Shown here: piece after piece, positions 2,718 through 37,817 of the stretch
Layout: the number at the start of each line of letters is the position of its first letter
How positions within the stretch are numbered: the first letter of the stretch is position 1
From: Clostridiales bacterium
GTDB taxonomy: Bacteria; Bacillota; Clostridia; Lachnospirales; Lachnospiraceae
Assembly: GCA_029098165.1 (NCBI GenBank)
Contig: JAQXNU010000043.1
Span: forward strand, 1 to 37,817
Length of the DNA: 37,817 nucleotides
Direction of reading: 5' to 3'
Program-made: the position numbers and the translations under genes
The notes under the pieces: generated by a model
Told to the model about the DNA's origin: nothing
Seen by the model: only the letters and a program-made list of their open reading frames with translations
Database searches by the model: none

Positions 2718-3377
2718 TCAATCAAGATTCCAATATTTATCTAATGGTTGAGTATCGCTTTCCAGAAATTCTATAATTTCTTTATCGTCAAAATAAAAAT
2801 TTATCACTTTATGATTTTCAAATTCTACTAATGTAGGTACCCCGCCCAATACAAATTTGTCTTTATTCAATTCTTCTTTTTTTATATATGGATGCGTAGA
2901 AACCGCATACACCTTACCTGCTTCCTTTCCCTCATGCAATGCTGCATAATTCTCATTTGCCCAAATAACTTTATAGAATATTGGCGGATATTTTTCTTTT
3001 ATCAAATTTTCATTCATCCCATCATAGAACATAATTTTTCCGGTACTGTCTTTTTCTCCAATTTCAACATCATATTTTTTTTCATGGGAATCCCAATCAT
3101 AATTCCTCGTCCCTTTACATGCCTCTGCATCAATTTCATAGACTTCATTTCCTTGTTTAAAATTTTTTATGTCTTCTTTTATGTTATCGCAATATGGACA
3201 TTCTTTTCTATTGAAGTACACATAAAAGTGCCCCTCCTTATCAAACAGATCCTCTATGGATGTAGAATATGCTATATTTTCTTCTTTCACCTTTGGGAAT
3301 AAAATAATCCCCGCACCTACACACATTATAAAAAACACACTACATACTACACTAATTAAAACATTTTTCTTCTTCAT
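2718..3377 (-). CDS. Membrane-anchored thioredoxin-like protein (bacteriocin accessory type)
   Basis: The 219-aa protein has an N-terminal hydrophobic anchor (about residues 5-28) and then a thioredoxin-like domain with a CPYC active site at 60-63 in the context ECPYCDNI. A likely cis-proline loop, GGVPTLVEF, lies near the C-terminus. Proteins of this kind act outside the membrane to form or reshuffle disulfides, and similar ones accompany cysteine-containing bacteriocins. The gene starts inside the last codons of the C39 exporter gene (26-nt overlap), so translation is probably coupled. Its likely client is the five-cysteine peptide two genes upstream, but that is inference from position. 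Confidence 0.75.
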   Translation of the reverse strand: MKKKNVLISVVCSVFFIMCVGAGIILFPKVKEENIAYSTSIEDLFDKEGHFYVYFNRKECPYCDNIKEDIKNFKQGNEVYEIDAEACKGTRNYDWDSHEKKYDVEIGEKDSTGKIMFYDGMNENLIKEKYPPIFYKVIWANENYAALHEGKEAGKVYAVSTHPYIKKEELNKDKFVLGGVPTLVEFENHKVINFYFDDKEIIEFLESDTQPLDKYWNLD

Positions 3378-5559
3378 CTATATATTCCCCCTCACCACAT
3401 AACTGGCGGTACAATTCACATTGTTTTTTTAGTTGCTCGTCTGTTCCACTTGCTACTATACTGCCTTTTTGAAGAACATAAATGCAATTGCTATCTGCTA
3501 TTACATCGATCCTATGTGAAATCAGTATAAGCGTTAGATTCTGAATTCCTTTGATATAGTTCAAAATCTCTCTCTCACTTATAGAATCCATATTGCTCGT
3601 TGCTTCATCTAAAATTAGAACCTGAGGATGGCGTAAGATAGCTCTAGTTAATGATATTTTCTGTCTTTGACCTTTTGAAAGATTTTTTCCACGCTCTTCA
3701 AGTACACTATCATAGCCTCTTTCCATCTTGCTTACAAATTGATCTACTCCCATGTTATGTGAAATTTCAATCATTTCATCATCCGTTATTCCATCATTTC
3801 CCATTTTTAAATTTTCTCTAACACTCGCAGTAAACAAGAAATCTTCTTGTGACACATATACAATAGCTGCTCGGATTTCTTGAACCCCCAAATTTTGAAA
3901 TTCTATATTGTCAACATATACCTCCCCCTTATCCGGAGAATAAAATTTCATAAATAATTTTGCTAAAGTTGTTTTTCCCGATCCTGTTTCTCCAACAATG
4001 GCTATCTTCTCTCCTTTTTTTATTTTAATATTGATCTTATCTAGTACATTTTTTCCAGAACGGAACTGTAAATTAACATCTTTCAGTTCTATTTTTTCAT
4101 TAATTTTAAGTGCCTCTACATTATCCTTTGATTTCTCTATTTTGATGCACAGCACACTTTCTAAACGCTCCATGGCGACATGAGCAGCATGGTATAGTGG
4201 CTGTAAATTTACAATATCTTTAACTGGTGTTAATAGATACCCAATCAAAATATTATAAGTAACCAATTCTCCTATGGATAAGTTATTACGGATAATTTCA
4301 AATGTTCCAAAACACAACACAATAATTTCTCCCACTCCACCTATTAGAACTTTTATAGCTGACTGTAAATTTTCTGTACTTCCTAGTTCTAAAATCGTAT
4401 CTTGCCATTTTTCTATTTTCTTTTTTCCATTATTAAAGATTGTCCCATTATATGTATACGCTTTAACTGTCAAAATTCCTTCAATAGAATCAATCAAATG
4501 TGCAGTCACTCGTGCCTCTCTAGACATTTCTTTCGAATTTAAAACAGTATAATATTTCTTAAACCACACCATAACCCCAATATATGCAAAACACATTATA
4601 GCAACTACGGTAAATATTTTAATATTCAACAGACATAAAATAATGCTTACTGCAATTACAAATAATATATCAATTGGTAGAACCAATATGCTGCTTACCA
4701 AAGCCTCTTGAACTCTAATAACATCCTGAAATCTTGAAATAAATTCACCATTTTTACGTTTTTCAATAGAATCCACTTTTAAGTCGAGCAAATGCTTATA
4801 ATATTTAAGACTAAGCTCTAAATTGAAGGACTTTGAAATATCTAATGAAATTTTCGCTCTCCCCCAATCTACAATCGTTTTAACCAGCAACATTAAAATA
4901 ACCATTAGTGTCATAAATATTAAACTATAGATCAATCTATTTGGAATAATAGTATCTATCAGAGTTCCAAAGTAAAAAGAGGTAATAATAGAAATTCCCA
5001 TTGATATCCCAGAAAGTAACATAATATAGATCGTTCTCTTCCATTCTTTTTTTATCAACCCCAAAAATTTATTCTCATTACCTCGTATACTTTCCTTTTT
5101 TCGATAAAATTCTTCTGTTGTCTTAAAAATAATAATAATACCTGTCCAAAAATAGGGACAATTTTCCCCAAACTCAGAATTAAAAAATTTATTTCTATTC
5201 ACTTCTACGATACCAACAGATGGATCCGCAATTACTATGCTATCCTTTTTTATTTTGTAAATTACAACAAAATGTGCTAAGCCATCTTCTTGATATACGT
5301 GTGCAACGCATGGGAATTCTAATTCATTTTCTCTGAATTCTTCATTTTTTTTATATGCTGATGCCAAAAATCCTATATTTTCTGCAACTCGACAAATATC
5401 CCAGACACTCGTTCCTTCTTTGTTAGTTTCTAAAGCTTCGCTTAGTTCTATCATAGACATTTTCTTTCCATAGTACCATGCTATACTTGCTAAACAGGCC
5501 CCCGCACAATCTGTAGAGTCATATTGTTTTACACATCTGTATTTCATGTCTTTCACCAT
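3352..5559 (-). CDS. Peptidase-containing (C39) ABC exporter for double-glycine leader peptides
   Basis: This is a 735-aa bacteriocin-type processing exporter. Residues 5-125 form a C39 peptidase with catalytic Cys18 (STDCAGACL), His96 (AHFVV) and Asp112 (ADPSVG). A six-helix TM domain spans about 175-450. The nucleotide-binding domain has Walker A GETGSGKTT at 522-530, signature LSKGQ at 626 and Walker B VLILDE at 646. The family cleaves after Gly-Gly while exporting the cargo. The adjacent upstream gene encodes such a substrate. Translation may start at the ATG at 5559 or at the ATG at 5547 (MKYRC); the AGGGAG ribosome site is better spaced for the latter. A terminator-like hairpin lies between the peptide gene and this gene. 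Confidence 0.92.
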   Translation of the reverse strand: MVKDMKYRCVKQYDSTDCAGACLASIAWYYGKKMSMIELSEALETNKEGTSVWDICRVAENIGFLASAYKKNEEFRENELEFPCVAHVYQEDGLAHFVVIYKIKKDSIVIADPSVGIVEVNRNKFFNSEFGENCPYFWTGIIIIFKTTEEFYRKKESIRGNENKFLGLIKKEWKRTIYIMLLSGISMGISIITSFYFGTLIDTIIPNRLIYSLIFMTLMVILMLLVKTIVDWGRAKISLDISKSFNLELSLKYYKHLLDLKVDSIEKRKNGEFISRFQDVIRVQEALVSSILVLPIDILFVIAVSIILCLLNIKIFTVVAIMCFAYIGVMVWFKKYYTVLNSKEMSREARVTAHLIDSIEGILTVKAYTYNGTIFNNGKKKIEKWQDTILELGSTENLQSAIKVLIGGVGEIIVLCFGTFEIIRNNLSIGELVTYNILIGYLLTPVKDIVNLQPLYHAAHVAMERLESVLCIKIEKSKDNVEALKINEKIELKDVNLQFRSGKNVLDKINIKIKKGEKIAIVGETGSGKTTLAKLFMKFYSPDKGEVYVDNIEFQNLGVQEIRAAIVYVSQEDFLFTASVRENLKMGNDGITDDEMIEISHNMGVDQFVSKMERGYDSVLEERGKNLSKGQRQKISLTRAILRHPQVLILDEATSNMDSISEREILNYIKGIQNLTLILISHRIDVIADSNCIYVLQKGSIVASGTDEQLKKQCELYRQLCGEGEYIDEEEKCFN

Positions 5560-5630: not shown

Positions 5631-5831
5631 TTAATATCCACAATCTTCATAACAAAACTGAATGTATTTGCTTGCCTTATTTTTCTGTCCAGAATTCATC
5701 AGGTTTTCAATTGTAGCTACCATGTCATCTGCATTAGCTGGGCAACAGAAAAAATAGCCATAATCAGAATTACATTTACCTCCCGTTACCATTTCCATTT
5801 CTTTTTGTGACATTTTTTGCATTCCATTCAT
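5631..5831 (-). CDS. Double-glycine leader peptide, bacteriocin-like precursor with five cysteines
   Basis: The real start is the ATG at 5831, preceded by AAGGAGG at good spacing; the longer ORF in the track has no ribosome site. The product is 66 aa. The leader MNGMQKMSQKEMEMVTGG has the acidic/hydrophobic pattern and GG end recognised by C39 peptidases, giving a predicted 48-residue mature peptide. That peptide has cysteines at precursor positions 20, 29, 30, 60 and 64, a CC pair and a CGY end. The odd number of cysteines means at least one stays unpaired unless the peptide dimerises or is modified. No lanthipeptide or radical-SAM enzyme is adjacent, so a disulfide-type unmodified (class II) bacteriocin or signal is the simplest reading. 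Sequence family is not recognised. Confidence 0.82.
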   Translation of the reverse strand: MNGMQKMSQKEMEMVTGGKCNSDYGYFFCCPANADDMVATIENLMNSGQKNKASKYIQFCYEDCGY

Positions 5832-5863
5832 GTTCGCTTCCTCCTTATATATTTGATACTTAA

Positions 5864-5931
5864 TTAGTACTCCATAATATAAATTTTTTCTATATTTTTT
5901 GCGTAGTTTGTGTTTTTTTTTGCCTAGTTGG
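5864..5931 (-). promoter_or_regulatory. Promoter of the GG-leader peptide with island element copy 1
   Basis: The 41-bp element at 5891-5931 ends in TTGG on the plus strand. On the minus strand it contains two near-identical half sites, AACTAGGCAAAAAA and AACTACGCAAAAAA, exactly 21 bp apart (two helical turns). A -10-like TACTAA (5864-5869) follows 21 bp downstream. No good -35 is present, as expected for an activated promoter. The same element occurs in front of metK, the tandem receiver gene and the first YTDDCG peptide. Confidence 0.65.
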
Positions 5932-5962
5932 AATTTGATTAAATACTTTAAAAACATCTATG

Positions 5963-9601: not shown

Positions 9602-10792
9602 TTATTTCAAATATTTTTTCAGTTCTTCTACCTTATCTAATCTTTCCCATGGAAGGTTGAGATCGTTTCTTCCAAAATGTCCATAGGCTGCCGTCTGTTT
9701 ATAGATCGGACGGCGGAGATCCAACATCTGAATGATTCCTGCTGGTCGCAGATCGAATTCTCTTCTTATCATCTCTACCAGACTCTCATCTGAAATTTTC
9801 CCAGTTCCAAAGGTGTCTACCATAATAGAGGTCGGATGAGCCACCCCAATTGCGTAAGACAACTGAATTTCACATTTTTTTGCCAGACCTGCAGCCACAA
9901 TATTCTTCGCAACATAACGAGCAGCATAAGATGCAGAACGATCTACTTTCGTACAGTCTTTTCCAGAAAAAGCTCCGCCGCCATGCCGTGCCATACCACC
10001 ATAGGTATCTACAATAATCTTGCGTCCTGTTACACCACTATCACCGTGAGGACCGCCTATGACAAAACGCCCTGTTGGATTGATGAAAAATTTTGTATTC
10101 TCATCTACCAGTTCTGTTGGAATAATCGGTTCCAATACATATTTTTTTATATCTTCGTGGATCTGCTCCTGTGTCACATCTGGATCATGCTGTGTTGACA
10201 GAACCACTGCATCCAGCCGATGCGGAATACCTGCTTCGTCATATTCTACAGTAACCTGACTCTTACCGTCCGGTCTTAAATAATTCAACAAACCATCTTT
10301 ACGGACCTGAGTAAGCTGCCGAGTCAATTTGTGTGCCAGTGAAATTGGATATGGCATAAATTCATTCGTTTCGTCACATGCGTAACCAAACATCATACCC
10401 TGATCCCCAGCACCAATTGCATCAAGCTCTTCTTCTGACATTTTGTGTTCTTTTGCTTCCAATGCCTTATTCACGCCCAAAGCAATATCTGCTGACTGCT
10501 CATCAATTGCCGTTAAGACAGCACAGGTATGTGCATCAAATCCATAATCTCCATTGTCATAACCAATTTCTTTAATCGTTTCTCTTACCACCTGCTGCAT
10601 ATCTATATACGCATTGGTCGTGATTTCTCCCATCACTAATACCATACCCGTTGTAATTGCAGTCTCACAGGCCACTCTGCTCATCGGATCCTTCTCCATA
10701 AGAGCATCCAATATGGCGTCTGATATGGCATCACACATTTTGTCCGGATGCCCTTCTGTTACTGATTCTGAGGTAAATAATCTTTTCTCCAT
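9602..10792 (-). CDS. metK: S-adenosylmethionine synthetase
   Basis: A full-length 396-aa methionine adenosyltransferase, which makes SAM from methionine and ATP in the cytosol. Visible landmarks are [12 protein letters not shown] at the N-terminus (active-site His15), [12 protein letters not shown] (signature 1), [10 protein letters not shown] (signature 2) and GTG near residue 330. AAAGGAGAA precedes the ATG. It is an ordinary, intact housekeeping enzyme in an unusual place: inside a peptide/regulator island, co-transcribed with a secreted hydrolase and driven by a promoter carrying the island's shared element. It may be a second metK supplying SAM for a peptide-modifying or methyltransferase step, or the chromosome's only copy caught beside the island; the window cannot decide. 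Confidence 0.95.
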
Positions 10793-17529: not shown

Positions 17530-17700
17530 ACACTACAGAACACGCGGAGGTGAGTGGCGGGGCTGTATAGCGGCGACCTCGCATAGTTATTTGTTGTCGG
17601 TCATCCGTTAAGGCATCAATGATTGGCGCATAACGTAGCCCGTAAACTTATCTCTTCCAAAGTCGACTCGATTTTGCCGGATGACCAGTCACTATCAGTT
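17530..17700 (+). ncRNA. Candidate IS110 bridge RNA
   Basis: The 210 bp before the transposase start contain two clear stems. The first is GAGGT at 17547-17551 with ACCTC at 17576-17580, extended by a GC/GC pair after a bulge. The second is GGTCATCCG at 17599-17607 with CGGATGACC at 17678-17686, enclosing about 70 nt. IS110 elements are known to encode a bridge RNA upstream of the transposase with a 5' hairpin and guide loops, which fits this layout. Guide loops cannot be assigned without the exact element ends. Confidence 0.6.
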
Positions 17701-17731
17701 TTATAACTATTACTATCAGGAGGTTTGTTTA

Positions 17732-18988
17732 TTGTTCAAAATTATCAAGAAAAACTGCTGTGGTCTTGATGTCCACAAGACTTGGATCTTTGCCTGTATC
17801 GGTATTACTGATTCCAATGACCGTACAGAGTATAAGCAGGCTCGTTTCTCTTCCTTTTCCAAAGGATTGCTGGAACTGTGCGATTGGCTTGCCAAGTACA
17901 ACTGTACCGATGTCTGCATGGAATCTACCGGAAAGTACTGGATCCCTGTCTATAACATTCTGGAGAAAAATAACCTATGGGTTACTCTTTCTCACCCAAA
18001 ATACACAAAACCTATGAAGGGTAATAAGACTGACCGTAAAGATGCCAAATGGATCTGCGATCTCTACATGTGTGGTATGGTCAAGCCTTCCTTTATTCCA
18101 CCTGCTGATATCCGTCATCTAAGAGACTTGGTTCGTTACCGATTCAAACTTACCTGTATGATTACCGGAGAAAAGAATCGTGCACAAAACTGCTTAACTG
18201 TATCTAATCTCAAACTTGATGATGTATTCAGTGATGTATTTGGCAAGTCCTCTCGTTCCATTATAGAACAGATACTTGCTCACCCTGGGGAAACCTTTGA
18301 TGTTACACCTTTTGTTGACAGTCGTTGCAAAACTCCGATTGAAGAAATCCAAGCCGCTGTTGATGGTGCTATCTCGCCTGAACAGGCTGTGAAACTTCGC
18401 CAATGCCTTAATCACATCGACGAATTAGAAAAGCACATAGAAACAGTGGAACAGGAAATTCTTCGCCTCTCTAATCAGTACTCGTCTGCACTTGAACTAA
18501 TACGTACTGTTCCTGGCTTCGGTAATAATCCGATGACTGCTATCCAAGTTCTCTCAGAAATCGGCGGTGATATGTCTGTCTTCCCCACAGCCAAACACCT
18601 CGTATCCTGGGCTGGATGTTGTCCTCGTAACGACCAAAGCAACAAAAAAATCAAATCGACTCGAATTTCCCGTGCCGGTTCTTATATTAAACCATTATTG
18701 GTACAAGTTGCAAACTCTTTAATCTTATCAAAGAAATATCCTGAGTTTACGACTCGTTATCGTCGTATAAAAGCACGTCGTGGTCACAAGAAAGCTACCA
18801 TCGCTCTGTGTCGTATGATCCTGACCGCTATCTGGCACATGCTTTCAGAGTTAAAGCCTTATACACCAGATGGATTTCTTGAATCGCGTCCTGTGAATGA
18901 ATCAAAAACTTTGACTACATCACAGGCACTTAATCTTCTTAAGCAACGAGGTTACATCATCAAAGATGATCCTGTAGCAGTTTCCTGA
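17732..18988 (+). CDS. IS110-family DEDD transposase
   Basis: The best start is TTG at 17732 because AGGAGG lies 8 nt upstream (17718-17723); the track ATG at 17681 lies inside the candidate bridge RNA stem. The 418-aa product has a RuvC-like DEDD domain: GLDVHKTW (Asp), MESTGKYW (Glu) and KTDRKDAKW (two Asp). A coiled region follows (EQAVKLRQCL...ETVEQEIL), then the C-terminal Transposase_20 domain with TVPGFG, SWAGCCPRND and RISRAGSYIK, whose Ser is the expected nucleophile. All landmarks are intact, so the enzyme is probably active. The protein would be guided by the bridge RNA to target and donor DNA. Confidence 0.93.
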   Translation: MFKIIKKNCCGLDVHKTWIFACIGITDSNDRTEYKQARFSSFSKGLLELCDWLAKYNCTDVCMESTGKYWIPVYNILEKNNLWVTLSHPKYTKPMKGNKTDRKDAKWICDLYMCGMVKPSFIPPADIRHLRDLVRYRFKLTCMITGEKNRAQNCLTVSNLKLDDVFSDVFGKSSRSIIEQILAHPGETFDVTPFVDSRCKTPIEEIQAAVDGAISPEQAVKLRQCLNHIDELEKHIETVEQEILRLSNQYSSALELIRTVPGFGNNPMTAIQVLSEIGGDMSVFPTAKHLVSWAGCCPRNDQSNKKIKSTRISRAGSYIKPLLVQVANSLILSKKYPEFTTRYRRIKARRGHKKATIALCRMILTAIWHMLSELKPYTPDGFLESRPVNESKTLTTSQALNLLKQRGYIIKDDPVAVS

Positions 18989-19016
18989 TTAGGTGTTGTG
19001 TCTATATTTATTTTTG

Positions 19017-19037
19017 AAACCACCCAACGGATGGTTT
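19017..19037 (+). terminator. Hairpin downstream of the transposase gene
   Basis: AAACCA at 19017 pairs with TGGTTT ending at 19037, with an internal CC/GG pair. It lies 28 bp after the transposase stop. The following sequence is only mildly T-rich, so it may be a weak terminator or part of the element's right end. Confidence 0.35.
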
Positions 19038-19079
19038 GTTTGCTATGCTCTTTATTTTTTCTCTATCCGCTACCTCTTT

Positions 19080-19221
19080 GTTTCAAACTTATCCTCCCCT
19101 TACTGTTATATGATATTATTACTTCATGTCCCTTTAATTTTAAATAATCCTGTAAAGAGAAACACTATAAGACCGTGCCGTAGTTATGAGCACTATGTAT
19201 AGTGATTATTCCGATTTTCAT
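19080..19221 (-). pseudogene. 5' remnant of a polysaccharide pyruvyl transferase family gene
   Basis: The minus-strand ATG at 19221, with ACGGAGG upstream, opens a frame reading MKIGIITIHSAHNYGTVL, the characteristic N-terminus of polysaccharide pyruvyl transferase family proteins. Codon 19 is TAG where the family has Gln (CAG to TAG would explain it). Beyond it the same frame continues with CFSLQDYLKLKGHEVIIS, again as expected for the family, and then loses similarity before 19,080. So the gene has a nonsense mutation and has lost almost all of its length, probably through the event that placed the IS110 element here. It is divergent from the MerR gene and fits a cell-surface polysaccharide neighbourhood. 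Confidence 0.72.
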
Positions 19222-19423
19222 GATTGAACCTCCGTTTTGTTACCACTAATTATACCTTATATAACAGGTCGGATTCAAGTACACTTACATAAACATGTCA
19301 GTATCTAAAACAAATTTCTTCCCATTATGATTGTAAGCCTATCTTCTTACTGATAAGAATTCATTGCACCTTACATAATTCCTCGCTATAATGTACATAT
19401 ATAAGAAAGGATTCGTATCGATC
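19222..19423 (+). promoter_or_regulatory. Promoter region of the MerR-methyltransferase gene
   Basis: A near-consensus sigma-A promoter is present: TTGCAC at 19364-19369, a 17-bp spacer, and TATAAT at 19387-19392. Because the -10 box covers the ATG of the track ORF (19391), translation must start downstream, at 19424. Together with 18,989-19,221 (IS right end and pyruvyl transferase remnant) this accounts for the long stretch without an intact gene. Confidence 0.75.
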
Positions 19424-20602
19424 ATGAAAAAACAAGGTTATTATTCCTCGGGTGTATTTGCACATATGGCTCATGTCACACTGCGTACCATCCGTTATTA
19501 CGATAAACAGAATATACTAAAGCCTTCCTTCGTCAACGAATCGGGTGCCCGTTTTTATACCGATGAAGATTTTGCACGTTTGCAACAGATTCTTCTGTTA
19601 AAATACTTAGGCTTTTCGCTAGAGGATATTAAAGAAATGATCATCGATGATTCCGATTACCATTACATGATCAACTCTCTGCATATTCAGCGAAAGCTGA
19701 TTCAAGACCGTATTGAACAGATGCAACTGGTGGAAAAGGCAATTCAAGATACGACCGAAGTGATTGAAACTCACCATAACATTGACTGGAGCCAGATGTT
19801 AAACTTGATTCACCTTACTGGTATGGAAAAGAGCATGAAGAATCAATATCAGAATGCTTCCAATATCTCCTCCCGAATCAATCTTCACCACCTTTATTCT
19901 CAAAATAAAGAAGGCTGGTTTTCTTGGATTTATTCCCAGTGTGAGTTTGATGACAACATGAAAGTTCTCGAGTTAGGGTGTGGGGATGGAACCTTTTGGA
20001 TTGAAAATCAAACGAAACTTCCTAAACACATTCAGATCACACTATCCGATATCTCAGAGGGAATGCTTCGCGATGCCCATCGTAGCATTGGTCACGACGA
20101 TTCGCGATTTTCTTATAGTTGTTTTGACTGTAGCACCATACCATACGATGATAACAGCTTCGATTTGGTAATCGCAAATCATGTTTTATTCTATTGTTCG
20201 GACATTCCCGCCATCTGTCAGGAAGTCTGCCGAGTTTTAAAACCAAATGGTACCTTTATTTGTAGTACTTATGGAAAAGATCATATGAAAGAGATCCGTC
20301 AGCTCGTTACGGACTTTGATGACCGTATCGTACTTTCTGCAAAAAAACTGTATGATGTCTTTGGATTAGAAAATGGTAACGAGCAATTAGCTCCTTACTT
20401 TTCTCAGATTGAATTAAAACATTACGACGATGAGCTCATTGTTCCCGATTCTGAACCATTGATTTCCTACATTCTATCGTGCCACGGAAATCAGAATCAA
20501 TATTTGATCAACCATTATAAAGAATTTCGTGCATTTATTCAGAAAAAAATACAATATGGGATTCATATAACGAAAGATGCTGGAATATTTATTTGTCGAT
20601 AA
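19424..20602 (+). CDS. MerR-family regulator fused to a SAM-dependent methyltransferase domain
   Basis: The start at 19424 is set by the promoter and by AAGAAAGGA 12 nt upstream. Of 392 residues, about 6-75 form a MerR winged helix (VFAHMAHVTLRTIRYYDKQN, FYTDEDFARLQQI, LGFSLEDIKEMI) and 80-118 the usual dimerisation helix. Residues 175-390 form a class I methyltransferase: VLELGCGDGTFW at 181-192 (SAM-binding), SDISEGML (motif II-like acidic loop), FDLVIANHVLFYC and VCRVLKPNGTFICSTYG. In MerR proteins the C-terminal domain senses the effector, so here SAM, a SAM-linked metabolite or a methyl-acceptor may be the signal. The rhamnose operon directly downstream has a MerR-type promoter and is the likely target. 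Confidence 0.85.
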   Translation: MKKQGYYSSGVFAHMAHVTLRTIRYYDKQNILKPSFVNESGARFYTDEDFARLQQILLLKYLGFSLEDIKEMIIDDSDYHYMINSLHIQRKLIQDRIEQMQLVEKAIQDTTEVIETHHNIDWSQMLNLIHLTGMEKSMKNQYQNASNISSRINLHHLYSQNKEGWFSWIYSQCEFDDNMKVLELGCGDGTFWIENQTKLPKHIQITLSDISEGMLRDAHRSIGHDDSRFSYSCFDCSTIPYDDNSFDLVIANHVLFYCSDIPAICQEVCRVLKPNGTFICSTYGKDHMKEIRQLVTDFDDRIVLSAKKLYDVFGLENGNEQLAPYFSQIELKHYDDELIVPDSEPLISYILSCHGNQNQYLINHYKEFRAFIQKKIQYGIHITKDAGIFICR

Positions 20603-20634
20603 TAAAAATATTTAGTAATTTGTGAAAAAAGTAC

Positions 20635-20665
20635 TTGAAGGTGACCTTAGGTCACCTTTTATAAT
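20635..20665 (+). promoter_or_regulatory. MerR-type promoter of the dTDP-rhamnose operon
   Basis: TTGAAG (-35, 20635-20640) and TATAAT (-10, 20660-20665) are separated by 19 bp instead of 17. The spacer carries the palindrome AAGGTGACC-TTA-GGTCACCTT. An over-long spacer with a centred dyad is the diagnostic arrangement for MerR-family activators, which untwist the promoter. The MerR fusion protein is encoded immediately upstream. Confidence 0.85.
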
Positions 20666-20728: not shown

Positions 20729-21625
20729 ATGAAAGGAATAATTTTAGCTGGTGGGTCAGGAACACGTCTCTACCCACTAACCATGGTCACTTCAAAGCAA
20801 CTGCTTCCGATCTACGATAAACCGATGATTTACTATCCGCTCTCAGTTTTAATGAATGCCGGTATCCGTGATATCTTAATTATCTCCACCCCACAGGATA
20901 CACCTCGTTTTGAGGAGCTTCTAAAGGATGGAAGTCAATTTGGACTTAACCTCTCCTATGCGGTACAGCCAAGTCCAGATGGACTTGCTCAGGCATTTCT
21001 CATTGGAGAAGAGTTTATTGGGGATGATAGCGTTGCTATGATTTTAGGAGATAACATCTTTACAGGTCATGGTTTGATCAAACGATTAAATGGAGCAGTA
21101 AAAAATGCAGAGAGTGGGAATGGAGCAACCATCTTTGGTTACTATGTCGATGATCCAGAACGTTTCGGTATCGTTGAATTTGATAGTAATGGGAAAGCGA
21201 TATCCATTGAAGAGAAGCCAGAACATCCAAAGAGCAATTACTGTGTTACTGGATTATACTTCTATGATAACAAAGTTATTGATTACGCAAAACAATTAAA
21301 ACCAAGTGCTCGTGGGGAATTAGAAATCACTGATTTAAACCGTATTTACCTTGAGAATAACAATCTTAATGTAGAGCTGCTTGGTCAAGGATTTACCTGG
21401 CTGGATACTGGAACACATGAAAGCCTTACCGAGGCTACTAACTTTGTAAAGACAGTAGAAAATCATCAACATCGTAAAATTGCCTGTCTGGAAGAAATCG
21501 CTTATCTTAATGGATGGATTTCTAGAGAAGAGATGCAAGAATGCTATGAAAAATTAAAGAAAAACCAATATGGTCAATATCTAAAAGATGTACTAGATGG
21601 AAAGTACTTAGATATCCTTCACTAA
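20729..21625 (+). CDS. rfbA: Glucose-1-phosphate thymidylyltransferase
   Basis: This 298-aa enzyme makes dTDP-glucose from glucose-1-phosphate and dTTP, the first step to dTDP-L-rhamnose in the cytoplasm. The N-terminal [11 protein letters not shown] nucleotide-binding signature, [25 protein letters not shown] (metal and sugar-nucleotide site), EEKP and the late TWLDTGTH are all present, and the length is normal. AAGGAG lies before the ATG; a similar site-plus-ATG sits 39 bp upstream as a two-codon mini-ORF. It is the first gene of a four-gene operon behind the MerR-type promoter. Equivalent to rmlA. Confidence 0.96.
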
Positions 21626-21700: not shown

Positions 21701-22720
21701 ATGAATATTATCGTAACTGGCGGTGCCGGATTTATCGGAAGTAATTTTATCTTCCACATGTTAAATAAATACCCTGATTATCGTATTATTTGCTTAGACT
21801 GCTTAACTTATGCAGGAAATCTTTCAACCTTAGCTCCAGTGATGGAAAATCCTAATTTTCGATTTGTAAAGGAAAGCATCACGGACCGAGAAGCAGTTTA
21901 CAAATTATTTGAAGAAGAACATCCGGATATTGTAGTTAACTTCGCAGCAGAAAGTCATGTAGATCGTTCCATCGAAAATCCTCAGGTATTTCTTGATACG
22001 AACATTGTCGGTACTTCAATTCTTATGGATGCTTGTCGTAAATATGGCATCCAGCGTTATCATCAGGTTTCTACCGATGAAGTTTATGGGGATCTTCCAC
22101 TCGACCGTCCTGACCTCTTCTTTACCGAAGAAACTCCAATCCATACAAGTAGTCCATACAGTTCCTCTAAAGCCGCTGCGGATCTTTTAGTATTAGCTTA
22201 CCATAGAACTTATAACCTGCCTGTGACGATCAGCCGTTGTTCGAACAACTATGGACCATATCATTTCCCAGAAAAACTCATTCCTTTAATGATTGCGAAT
22301 GCCCTTGCAGACAAACCACTTCCTGTTTACGGAGAAGGTTTAAATGTTAGAGACTGGCTTTATGTTGAAGATCACTGCAAAGCAATCGATCTTATTATTC
22401 ATAAAGGACGTGTTGGTGAAGTCTATAACGTAGGCGGTCACAACGAGATGAAAAACATAGATATCGTTAAAATCATCTGTAAGGAACTTGGGAAACCAGA
22501 AAGTCTGATTACCTTCGTTACGGATCGTAAAGGCCATGACATGCGCTATGCCATTGATCCAACTAAGATTCATAATGAATTAGGCTGGCTTCCTGAAACC
22601 AAATTCGAAGATGGTATTAAGAAAACTATTCAGTGGTATCTAGATAATCAAGAATGGTGGAGAACAATTATATCTGGAGAATACCAGAATTACTACAAAA
22701 AGATGTATGAGAACCGTTAG
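21701..22720 (+). CDS. rfbB: dTDP-glucose 4,6-dehydratase
   Basis: A 339-aa short-chain dehydrogenase/reductase that converts dTDP-glucose to dTDP-4-keto-6-deoxyglucose, the second pathway step. It has the NAD-binding GGAGFIGSNF, the catalytic STDEVYGDL segment and YSSSKAAAD (Tyr-x3-Lys), then SRCSNNYGPYHFPEKLIPL, a hallmark of this dehydratase. AGGAG precedes the ATG. It follows rfbA by 75 bp in the same orientation. Equivalent to rmlB. Confidence 0.96.
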   Translation: MNIIVTGGAGFIGSNFIFHMLNKYPDYRIICLDCLTYAGNLSTLAPVMENPNFRFVKESITDREAVYKLFEEEHPDIVVNFAAESHVDRSIENPQVFLDTNIVGTSILMDACRKYGIQRYHQVSTDEVYGDLPLDRPDLFFTEETPIHTSSPYSSSKAAADLLVLAYHRTYNLPVTISRCSNNYGPYHFPEKLIPLMIANALADKPLPVYGEGLNVRDWLYVEDHCKAIDLIIHKGRVGEVYNVGGHNEMKNIDIVKIICKELGKPESLITFVTDRKGHDMRYAIDPTKIHNELGWLPETKFEDGIKKTIQWYLDNQEWWRTIISGEYQNYYKKMYENR

Positions 22721-22787: not shown

Positions 22788-23675
22788 ATGAAAGTTTTAG
22801 TTACAGGAGTTAAAGGTCAACTAGGATATGATTGTATGAATGAACTTAAAATAAGAAATCATGAAGCAATCGGTGTCGATATTGAAGAGATGGATATCAC
22901 AGATTCAGCTTCCGTTGAATCTGTATTACATGAAGTAAAACCTGATGCCGTCATTCATTGTGCTGCTTGGACCGCGGTAGATTTAGCTGAAGATGAAGAC
23001 AATAAAGAAAAAGTTCAACTTGTTAATGTAGTAGGTACAGAAAATATCGCAAAAGTTTGCAAATCACTCGACTGCAAACTGATGTACATTTCTACCGACT
23101 ATGTCTTTGATGGTCAAGGTACAAAACCTTGGCAACCTGACTGCAAAGACTACCACCCTCTCAATGTTTATGGTGAAACAAAACTTGCTGGCGAATTAGC
23201 AGTTTCTAGTATTCTAAACAAGTACTTCATTGTACGTATAGCATGGGTCTTCGGAATTAATGGAAATAACTTTATTAAAACGATGTTAAATGTCGGAAAG
23301 AATCACAATACGATCAACGTTGTGAATGACCAAATCGGAACTCCAACCTACACGTTGGATCTTGCAAGATTATTAGTCGACATGATCGAAACGGATCAAT
23401 ATGGATACTATCATGCAACCAACGAAGGCAGTTATATCAGCTGGTACGATTTCACCAAAGAAATCTTCCGTCAAGCAGTAGAACTTGGTCACACCGAATA
23501 CACCGAAGACAAAGTTTGTGTCAATCCAGTAACTACCGCAGAATATGGGATTTCCAAGGCAGCCAGACCTTTTAATAGTCGCTTGGATAAACAAAAACTG
23601 ATTGTTCATGGGTTTACTCCATTGCCAACCTGGCAGGATGCCGTAAAACGCTATTTGAAAGAAATTGACTTCTAA
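22788..23675 (+). CDS. rfbD: dTDP-4-dehydrorhamnose reductase
   Basis: The 295-aa enzyme catalyses the last step, NADPH-dependent reduction to dTDP-L-rhamnose. It shows the N-terminal GVKGQLGYD dinucleotide-binding loop, STDYVFDGQG, YGETKLAGE (Tyr-x3-Lys), RIAWVFG, and the C-terminal RPFNSRLDKQKL typical of RmlD/RfbD. Spacing from rfbB is 67 bp. Gene order A-B-D-C places the reductase before the epimerase, one of several orders seen for this pathway. Confidence 0.95.
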   Translation: MKVLVTGVKGQLGYDCMNELKIRNHEAIGVDIEEMDITDSASVESVLHEVKPDAVIHCAAWTAVDLAEDEDNKEKVQLVNVVGTENIAKVCKSLDCKLMYISTDYVFDGQGTKPWQPDCKDYHPLNVYGETKLAGELAVSSILNKYFIVRIAWVFGINGNNFIKTMLNVGKNHNTINVVNDQIGTPTYTLDLARLLVDMIETDQYGYYHATNEGSYISWYDFTKEIFRQAVELGHTEYTEDKVCVNPVTTAEYGISKAARPFNSRLDKQKLIVHGFTPLPTWQDAVKRYLKEIDF

Positions 23676-23763: not shown

Positions 23764-24357
23764 ATGGGACAAATTACAGTAGAAAAAAATGTAGGTGGTA
23801 TTGAAGGCTTATGCGTTATCAGTCCTGCTGTTCATGGTGACGCACGTGGATATTTTATGGAAACATATAACCAGAATGACATGAAAGAAGCAGGGCTTAA
23901 TATGGTATTCGTTCAGGATAATCAGTCCTGCTCTACGAAAGGTGTACTTCGCGGTCTTCACTTTCAAAAAGAATTCCCACAAGGAAAATTAGTACGCGTG
24001 ATCAAAGGGCGTGTCTTCGATGTTGCTGTTGACTTACGCAAAGATTCCAATACCTATGGGAAATGGTACGGAATTGAGCTAACAGAAGAAAACAAGAAAC
24101 AATTTTACATTCCAGAAGGATTTGCTCATGGATTTTTAGTACTTTCTGATATTGCCGAGTTCTGCTATAAATGCACTGACTTCTATCATCCTGGGGACGA
24201 AGGTGGTCTTGCTTGGAATGATCCTAAAATCGGTATTGTATGGCCTGAAGTTGTCGGAGAATATAAGGGAAGTGCTTCCGGCGTAGGATATAAAATGACA
24301 GATGGTACGGTATTGAATTTGAGTGAAAAAGACCAAAAACAACCTAATCTGATTTAG
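23764..24357 (+). CDS. rfbC: dTDP-4-dehydrorhamnose 3,5-epimerase
   Basis: A 197-aa cupin-fold epimerase, third step of the pathway. GVLRGLHFQ carries the catalytic His, FDVAVDLRKDS and IPEGFAHGFLVLSD are family landmarks, and the Tyr of CYKCTDFY is the likely acid. AAGGAG precedes the ATG. It ends the rhamnose operon and is followed at once by a strong bidirectional hairpin. Equivalent to rmlC. Confidence 0.95.
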   Translation: MGQITVEKNVGGIEGLCVISPAVHGDARGYFMETYNQNDMKEAGLNMVFVQDNQSCSTKGVLRGLHFQKEFPQGKLVRVIKGRVFDVAVDLRKDSNTYGKWYGIELTEENKKQFYIPEGFAHGFLVLSDIAEFCYKCTDFYHPGDEGGLAWNDPKIGIVWPEVVGEYKGSASGVGYKMTDGTVLNLSEKDQKQPNLI

Positions 24358-36992: not shown

Positions 36993-37817
36993 TTATTCTC
37001 CTACTATGCCATCTCCATCACGATCGTCCATATACTTGTACAACCAATGATCTTTATAAATTGGCATCGTATAACCAGCATCCTTCGCTTCTTTGATTGT
37101 CACTTTCCCATTGCCATTCTTATCGATTTTTTGCAATTCCTTCTTTTCATCGAACGTAGAGTTTGTTTCCTCTACTTTCTCTGGTATAATCTCTGGTTCA
37201 GACTCTGGTTTTTCTGGCATAGTTTCTGGTTTGACATCTGGTTTCTTCTGTGGATTCATCTGAGGCACGATTTCTTCTTTTTTCTGAGTCGAATCATTTT
37301 GCTTCTCTGGATTCCCATTTGCAAACTCATCTACTATTCTTCTACCTTTTAGTGTATATTCATATTTGTATCTCGAAGGGATCTGAGTTTTGGTATCAGG
37401 GTAAGTGATAGTAGCAATAAAGTTTTGACATCCACCTGCATCACGGATTACTTTCTCCATATATGCCTGGTCACCATGTCTGTTCAATGTACTATCTTGA
37501 GGTGTTATGTTATAAGCATTCGATACTCCGCCTAAGGAATCAGCAATTACATGGCCTTCATCGAGATCCTTTCTCTCCACTCCCGGTACTTTTGCTTCAT
37601 CATAATAATATCTACCATTTGATTTTACTGGCTCATTTTTTTCATCTTGCAGAATAATCTTGTCAGCGATTACGGTCACCAGTTGGCCATACTCATTCGT
37701 TAATGCCCAATATTCTCGATCTCCGAACCCGATGTCCACCGCAACATTCGCTTGTCGATTTCCAGACAAATCTCCACCATCTACTTCGATAATGGTGTAT
37801 TCTTTTCCACCATATTT
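36993..37817 (-). CDS. DNA/RNA non-specific endonuclease with excalibur-like tail (5' end outside window)
   Basis: The reading frame stays open to the right edge, upstream of the TTG that the track takes as start, so the gene is incomplete. The visible 274 codons begin YGGKEYTIIEVDGGDLSG. The nuclease core has GRYYYDEAKVPGVER and DEGHVIADSLGG, the DxGHxxA form of the His-Me-finger NS_2 endonucleases, then NAYNITPQDSTLNRHG. A Pro/Glu/Lys-rich linker (about 60 residues) leads to a calcium-binding end: DKNGNGKVT and an excalibur-like DRDGDGIVGE, in which the usual Cys is Gly. It is probably secreted or surface-bound and degrades extracellular DNA or acts in DNA uptake; a signal peptide cannot be seen. 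Confidence 0.88.
   Translation of the reverse strand, partial: KYGGKEYTIIEVDGGDLSGNRQANVAVDIGFGDREYWALTNEYGQLVTVIADKIILQDEKNEPVKSNGRYYYDEAKVPGVERKDLDEGHVIADSLGGVSNAYNITPQDSTLNRHGDQAYMEKVIRDAGGCQNFIATITYPDTKTQIPSRYKYEYTLKGRRIVDEFANGNPEKQNDSTQKKEEIVPQMNPQKKPDVKPETMPEKPESEPEIIPEKVEETNSTFDEKKELQKIDKNGNGKVTIKEAKDAGYTMPIYKDHWLYKYMDDRDGDGIVGE

Follow-up and report, generated by a model that had tools for sequence, protein, structure and literature searches.

MerR-type activators convert a signal into a distortion of the promoter DNA that aligns the −35 and −10 elements. BmrR, Mta, TipA and EcmrR pair a MerR head with a palindromic operator in a 19-bp spacer, and the same arrangement was found at the locus described here, in which a gene for a MerR-methyltransferase fusion protein is followed by the dTDP-rhamnose genes. 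The locus lies in a 37,817-nucleotide stretch from a Clostridiales bacterium (contig JAQXNU010000043.1), which was analysed as a whole and is referred to as the window. The solved sequences nearest to the MerR head of the fusion were 3hh0, MtaN (1jbg), TipA (2vz4), BmrR and EcmrR. In contrast to BmrR, Mta, TipA and EcmrR, the effector domain of the fusion is a complete class I SAM methyltransferase, and the predicted target is dTDP-rhamnose synthesis, whereas theirs is a drug response. The enzymes TmtA, GtmA, OxaG, YcgJ and RebM share the fold of this domain over residues 139-392 (Z-scores of 19-22) as well as the SAM motif, but the domain of the fusion is joined to a DNA-binding head and is only 13-17% identical to them. 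A literature search over titles and the openings of abstracts, with subscription papers mostly outside its coverage, returned no study of a MerR-methyltransferase fusion or of a MerR regulator of rml. Many polymers of the bacterial cell surface are built with rhamnose. The comparisons below indicate that the fusion is likely a one-component regulator devoted to the synthesis of dTDP-L-rhamnose; a MerR regulator dedicated to rhamnose synthesis, with a methyltransferase as its presumed sensor, would be a variant of the MerR regulators.

The fusion gene (19424..20602, forward strand, ATG at 19424) encodes 392 amino acids. Its MerR winged-helix DNA-binding domain spans residues 7-73 (19442..19642, forward; Pfam MerR_1, E 1.6e-16), and the N-terminal head scored 60.6 bits against PF13411, for which the cut-off is 21.6. 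The class I methyltransferase domain covers residues 139-392 (19838..20599, forward), as delimited by fold alignment of the predicted model; Pfam Methyltransf_11 matched residues 182-280 (E 5.6e-20), and a Rossmann-like methyltransferase fold is present according to both Pfam and the model. The predicted structure had a mean pLDDT of 79 with a weak linker region, and it contained a helix at residues 79-117 after the DNA-binding domain (pLDDT of about 53-66) that is a candidate dimerisation helix. Superposition of model residues 139-392 on solved small-molecule methyltransferases gave a best Z-score of 21.7 with an rmsd of 3.1 over 244 residues. We noted by eye a candidate promoter of the fusion gene, TTGCAC-17-TATAAT (19364..19392, forward), which contains no palindrome and was absent from the promoter-scan output.

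The rml genes follow on the forward strand in the order rmlA (rfbA; 20729..21625; TIGR01207, 483 bits, cut-off 361), rmlB (rfbB; 21701..22720; TIGR01181, 497 bits, cut-off 365), rmlD (rfbD; 22788..23675; TIGR01214, 292 bits, cut-off 224) and rmlC (rfbC; 23764..24357; TIGR01221, 238 bits, cut-off 156). The four-gene dTDP-rhamnose set is complete, and all four genes scored above the NCBIfam cut-offs. The rml promoter (20635..20665, forward) consists of TTGAAG (20635-20640), a 19-nt spacer and TATAAT (20660-20665), a layout that recurs in relatives. It holds the putative operator AAGGTGACCTTAGGTCACCTT, an exact 21-bp palindrome at 20638..20658 (strandless), which at up to three mismatches occurs at a single place in the window, where 100 shuffles of the window gave an expected number of 0.00. 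Thus, the two structural claims of the earlier note were both borne out: Pfam matched the two halves of the proposed fusion of a MerR head with a complete class I methyltransferase, the fold of which spans residues 139-392, and the palindrome proposed for the 19-bp spacer before the rfb operon is exact and flanked by TTGAAG and TATAAT. In the 3.76-Mb genome to which the window belongs, the core palindrome occurs at three places at up to two mismatches. A wider regulon in this genome was considered and rejected; promoter elements are missing around the other two places, one of which falls within a 454-residue open reading frame.

To compare related loci, we searched a one-genome-per-species collection and kept the best 80 of 301 stretches encoding a relative; in these 80, the fusion relatives were 61-73% identical over nearly their full length. 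A promoter site, defined as TTG, a 21-bp palindrome, one nucleotide and TAnnnT, was found in 74 of the 80 loci, and 66 matches in the real loci compared with one match each in reversed or complemented loci. Wherever rmlA or rmlB was present in the fetched DNA (73 loci), the operator lay 21-204 nt (median 76) upstream of an rml gene, which was rmlA in 68 cases and rmlB in five. The other seven loci contained neither gene in the fetched DNA; one of them (L067) has a site near a contig end, and whole-genome searches of the remaining six revealed one site each, directly before rmlA in all six. The distance between fusion and site ranged from 11 nt up to several kilobases among the loci, the two were about 11 kb apart in G148, and they were on separate contigs in G118. 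Because the operator tracks rml while its distance from the fusion varies, the site belongs to rml rather than to the fusion gene's end. The arms of the palindrome also co-varied: positions 7/15 are mostly A/T and otherwise C/G, and C and G are swapped at positions 9/13. The main scans presumed the 19-bp layout; a search with the core that made no assumption about spacing returned 19-bp spacing wherever both elements were close (72 sites), and the −35 and −10 elements stand at a fixed distance across the operator sites. The short contig of one locus (L083) bears a second operator-like promoter (site at 4309, minus strand) close to another rmlA match; this may reflect a duplication of rmlA with shared control, or else an artefact of assembly.

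We then compared the presence of fusion, operator and rmlA in 299 genomes of the family, with counts tallied by hand. At E<=1e-80, with the best six candidates per genome scored, the fusion was called in at least 45 genomes, or at least 46 if G114 is included; two of the 45 (G115 and G125) belong to a different branch, leaving 43 rml-type fusion genomes. The operator was present at up to two mismatches in 34 of the 299 genomes, and the fusion was detected in 32 of these. In the two others, G003 and G218, the match lies away from rml, and neither was retained as an example of an operator without the fusion. The G003 site (L101) precedes a different MerR-type gene, a 277-aa frame that matches the MerR part only, and there is no rml gene within 1.5 kb of the G218 site. 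A further apparent exception, G114, with a three-mismatch site at rmlA, was rejected since the fusion adjoins it as two matches in one open frame. The backwards pattern, used as a control at up to three mismatches, matched seven of the 299 genomes, compared with 55 for the true pattern, and almost all matching genomes contained a single site; G067 and G179 each have a further one with three mismatches. Among the 43 rml-type fusion genomes, a site was found at up to two mismatches in 32 and at three mismatches in a further five (G046, G073, G118, G149 and G243), and a divergent site before the fusion was located by script or eye in G108, G132 and G194. No recognisable operator was found in three of the 43, G111, G174 and G266, where the 12 kb fetched for each of G174 and G266 contained no rml gene. 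In comparison with the ordinary rml/rfb operon, the present one has a dedicated MerR-type promoter and regulator: rmlA was found in 253 of the 299 genomes and the fusion in at least 45, so that in about 210 genomes rmlA is present but no fusion was detected. In these, no operator at up to two mismatches was found at rml.

The recognition-helix residues L20 and R21 (19481-19486, forward) were identified by their co-variation with operator bases. They fall in the stretch that we take to form the recognition helix of MerR proteins, and the predicted model has a helix at residues 20-28. Identical proteins were collapsed for this comparison, giving 128 rows including L001, which is the window itself; with the window added, there are 128 rows without L001. 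The family counts leave out L001 as well as L002 and L003, which are other sites of the window's own genome. Residue 21 and operator position 7 formed the combinations Arg-A in 92 proteins and Lys-C in 12, with none of the 104 discordant, where the operators of eight distant relatives are palindromic promoters that we chose immediately upstream of the fusion gene. In the best tree inferred from the methyltransferase columns only, residue 21 and position 7 changed seven times and always together; independent changes on well-supported branches amounted to three pairs, too few for significance (sign test p 0.25). When all 392 columns were scanned against position 7, residue 21 ranked first with a normalised mutual information of 0.87, the next value being 0.32. 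For the inner operator pair, residue 20 ranked first narrowly (0.39, next 0.38), and within the rml branch alone it reached 0.48 (next 0.41). The counts of residue 20 against the inner pair were 45:2 for Leu and 3:27 for Val; this second link is strong by counts but was set aside as unsupported by independent pairs. The R21/K21 rule provides a ready basis for a specificity-switch test.

Conservation of the operator, its tracking of rml where the fusion is unlinked, the co-variation of helix and operator, and the absence of the operator at fusion-free rml together argue for control of rml, and they lend strong support to the proposal of the earlier note that the fusion controls the rml operon. 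The palindrome, which that note proposed to look for before rfbA in genomes with the fusion, stood before rmlA or rmlB in 73 of 73 loci and before rmlA in six of six unlinked genomes; the opposite outcome, a palindrome kept where the fusion is missing, was looked for in the 299 genomes and not seen at rml at up to two mismatches. We are therefore highly confident from these sequence patterns that the fusion binds the palindromic site and controls rml. Activation rather than repression is very likely, by analogy, because of the promoter layout and the MerR family. A dedicated regulator of rhamnose precursors in gut bacteria, among them Blautia, Anaerobutyricum and Coprococcus, would offer a handle on the surface-glycan output of common commensals.

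The methyltransferase domain was examined in an alignment of the window protein and 67 of the 80 locus proteins (68 rows). In particular, E183, G185, G187, G189 and D209 were invariant in all 68 proteins, the first four lying in the SAM-binding motif ELGCGDG (residues 183-189; 19970..19990, forward), and because these motif residues are invariant, the domain likely binds SAM. Across a wider set of 128 rows, six departed from the exact pattern of motif I (ExGxGxG) and the later acidic residue. Row comparison also revealed a signature of the rml branch, the C-terminal motif SCHGNQNQY (residues 352-360; 20477..20503, forward): SCHGNQ was present in 106 of the 107 rml-type proteins, the exception being truncated, and in none of the 21 others. 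The rml-type grouping was derived from identity and the tree, and it includes L130 and L131, whose fetched DNA has no rml gene, and L122, which adjoins a gene for a dTDP-glucose 4,6-dehydratase. The confinement of SCHGNQ to the rml branch suggests a pathway-specific ligand beside SAM, for which we see an even chance, and since the C-terminal motif is the rml-associated feature, the signal may be a ligand other than SAM. We infer that SAM would serve all branches as co-ligand, with pathway specificity perhaps conferred by the C-terminal site; dTDP-sugars as the ligand are our guess. The domain is probably the sensor, and a methyltransferase that serves a MerR switch as its sensor would, if true, be a new type of effector domain. 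The earlier idea that SAM binding or methyl transfer is coupled to rhamnose output remains plausible from the sequence.

The regulator might instead respond solely to the level of SAM in the cell, or to the SAM/SAH ratio, with rhamnose output then tracking the methylation state. The SAM motif is kept in all branches, as this explanation would have it, but it is also present in stand-alone methyltransferases and in relatives whose neighbours are sugar-aminotransferase or arginine-deiminase genes, and the rml-specific conservation at residues 352-357 lies outside it; we consider the explanation rather unlikely. A bifunctional protein, in which a working methyltransferase acts on a sugar nucleotide or lipid-linked sugar and its occupancy by substrate or product sets rml expression, also appears unlikely. 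The fold has the length of an enzyme (residues 139-392, Z 21.7) and aligns throughout with SAM- or SAH-bound small-molecule methyltransferases, and stand-alone homologues of the domain exist, but no sugar-methylation partner was seen among the conserved neighbours: in the best 80 of 301 loci, wide recurrence was limited to the rml genes. The SAM synthetase gene of the window (9602-10792, minus strand) was rejected as a functional link, as it is not a conserved neighbour in the 80 loci. No enzyme name could be assigned to the domain from the 25 NCBIfam matches listed, all of which were below cut-off, and the fold matches were broad; catalytic activity is doubtful.

It is improbable that the fusion is a constitutive activator or plain repressor in which the methyltransferase domain is a dimerisation or stability module only; the model is of low confidence in its linker region, which leaves room for such a role, but the SAM-motif and C-terminal residues are invariant among proteins 61-73% identical to the window protein, which argues for a kept ligand site. 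The last alternative, in which the palindrome would not be an operator but would terminate transcription of the fusion gene as an intrinsic terminator, is very improbable and was rejected on a T-tract test of 73 sites and on the sites away from the fusion: the RNA folds at −16.6 kcal/mol (z −3.2) and is followed by UUUU, but fewer than five T occur in the 8 nt past the stem at 19 of the 73 sites, the −35 and −10 elements keep a fixed distance, the site stays with rml when fusion and rml are apart, and its bases co-vary with the recognition helix.

For the preferred reading, a ligand-controlled activator of rml, we propose that a dimer would bind the 21-bp palindrome in the over-long 19-bp rml spacer through its MerR heads. 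The signal would enter via the C-terminal methyltransferase domain with its predicted SAM pocket, where SCHGNQ in the rml branch might, speculatively, read a further ligand or substrate that is specific to the pathway, for example a dTDP-sugar. Ligand binding would be passed along the linker helices to the DNA-binding heads, which would twist the spacer, bring −35 and −10 into register and so permit transcription of rmlABDC.

The fusion also occurs more widely. In a class-wide scan of 391 sampled genomes (E<=1e-60, best four candidates per genome scored), at least 18 had a match, rml-type ones included. Fusions of the other branches in Clostridia have the same two-domain layout at 30-43% identity and are without SCHGNQ, and several distant fusions have a palindromic 19-bp promoter before the fusion gene itself. 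The genome of the window encodes such a second fusion (G000:C2:24630-25811; L182, 6637-7812, minus strand), which is 30% identical and has its own palindromic promoter, TTG-ACCTTTACGTTAGGGTAAGGT-TTAACCT, just upstream. In eight loci (L164, L165, L167, L169 and L171-L174), the fusion is followed by two open reading frames of one aminotransferase family; the one pair checked was PseC-like, below the equivalog cut-off, and these loci are possibly a second sugar regulon of the same regulator family. In two others (L166 and L168), genes of the arginine-deiminase pathway follow, of which arcA and that of ornithine carbamoyltransferase in L166 and arcC in L168 were above cut-off, which suggests that this pathway is controlled by the same kind of regulator. 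A general scheme, in which a SAM-dependent methyltransferase domain would have turned into a metabolite sensor, is somewhat less than an even bet: SAM as co-ligand and SCHGNQ reading a dTDP-sugar of the rhamnose pathway would switch rml, and sister fusions with altered pockets would act likewise on amino-sugar and arginine pathways, so that together they would make up a family of MerR sensors based on methyltransferases. The domain family also includes two stand-alone methyltransferases. Conversely, MerR genes without a methyltransferase domain, in L191 (1477-2280; G256) and in L101 of G003, have a similar operator-like site just upstream; by eye, the next open reading frame in L191 resembles an ABC transporter ATPase.

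Several other features were observed in the window. A remnant open reading frame on the minus strand (18990-19221) begins MKIGIITIHSAHNYGTVL*CFSLQDYLKLKGHEV, with an internal stop, and adjoins an IS110-type transposase gene (17681-18988); we take it to resemble the start of a polysaccharide pyruvyl transferase. A Peptidase-C39 ABC transporter gene and an adjoining small open reading frame (3352-5559 and 5631-5957, minus strand) are probably a bacteriocin export pair; the small frame had no Pfam match and presumably carries a GG-type leader. Additionally, a protein with a non-specific endonuclease domain (PF13930) is encoded at 36993-37769 on the minus strand, where it is cut by the contig end.
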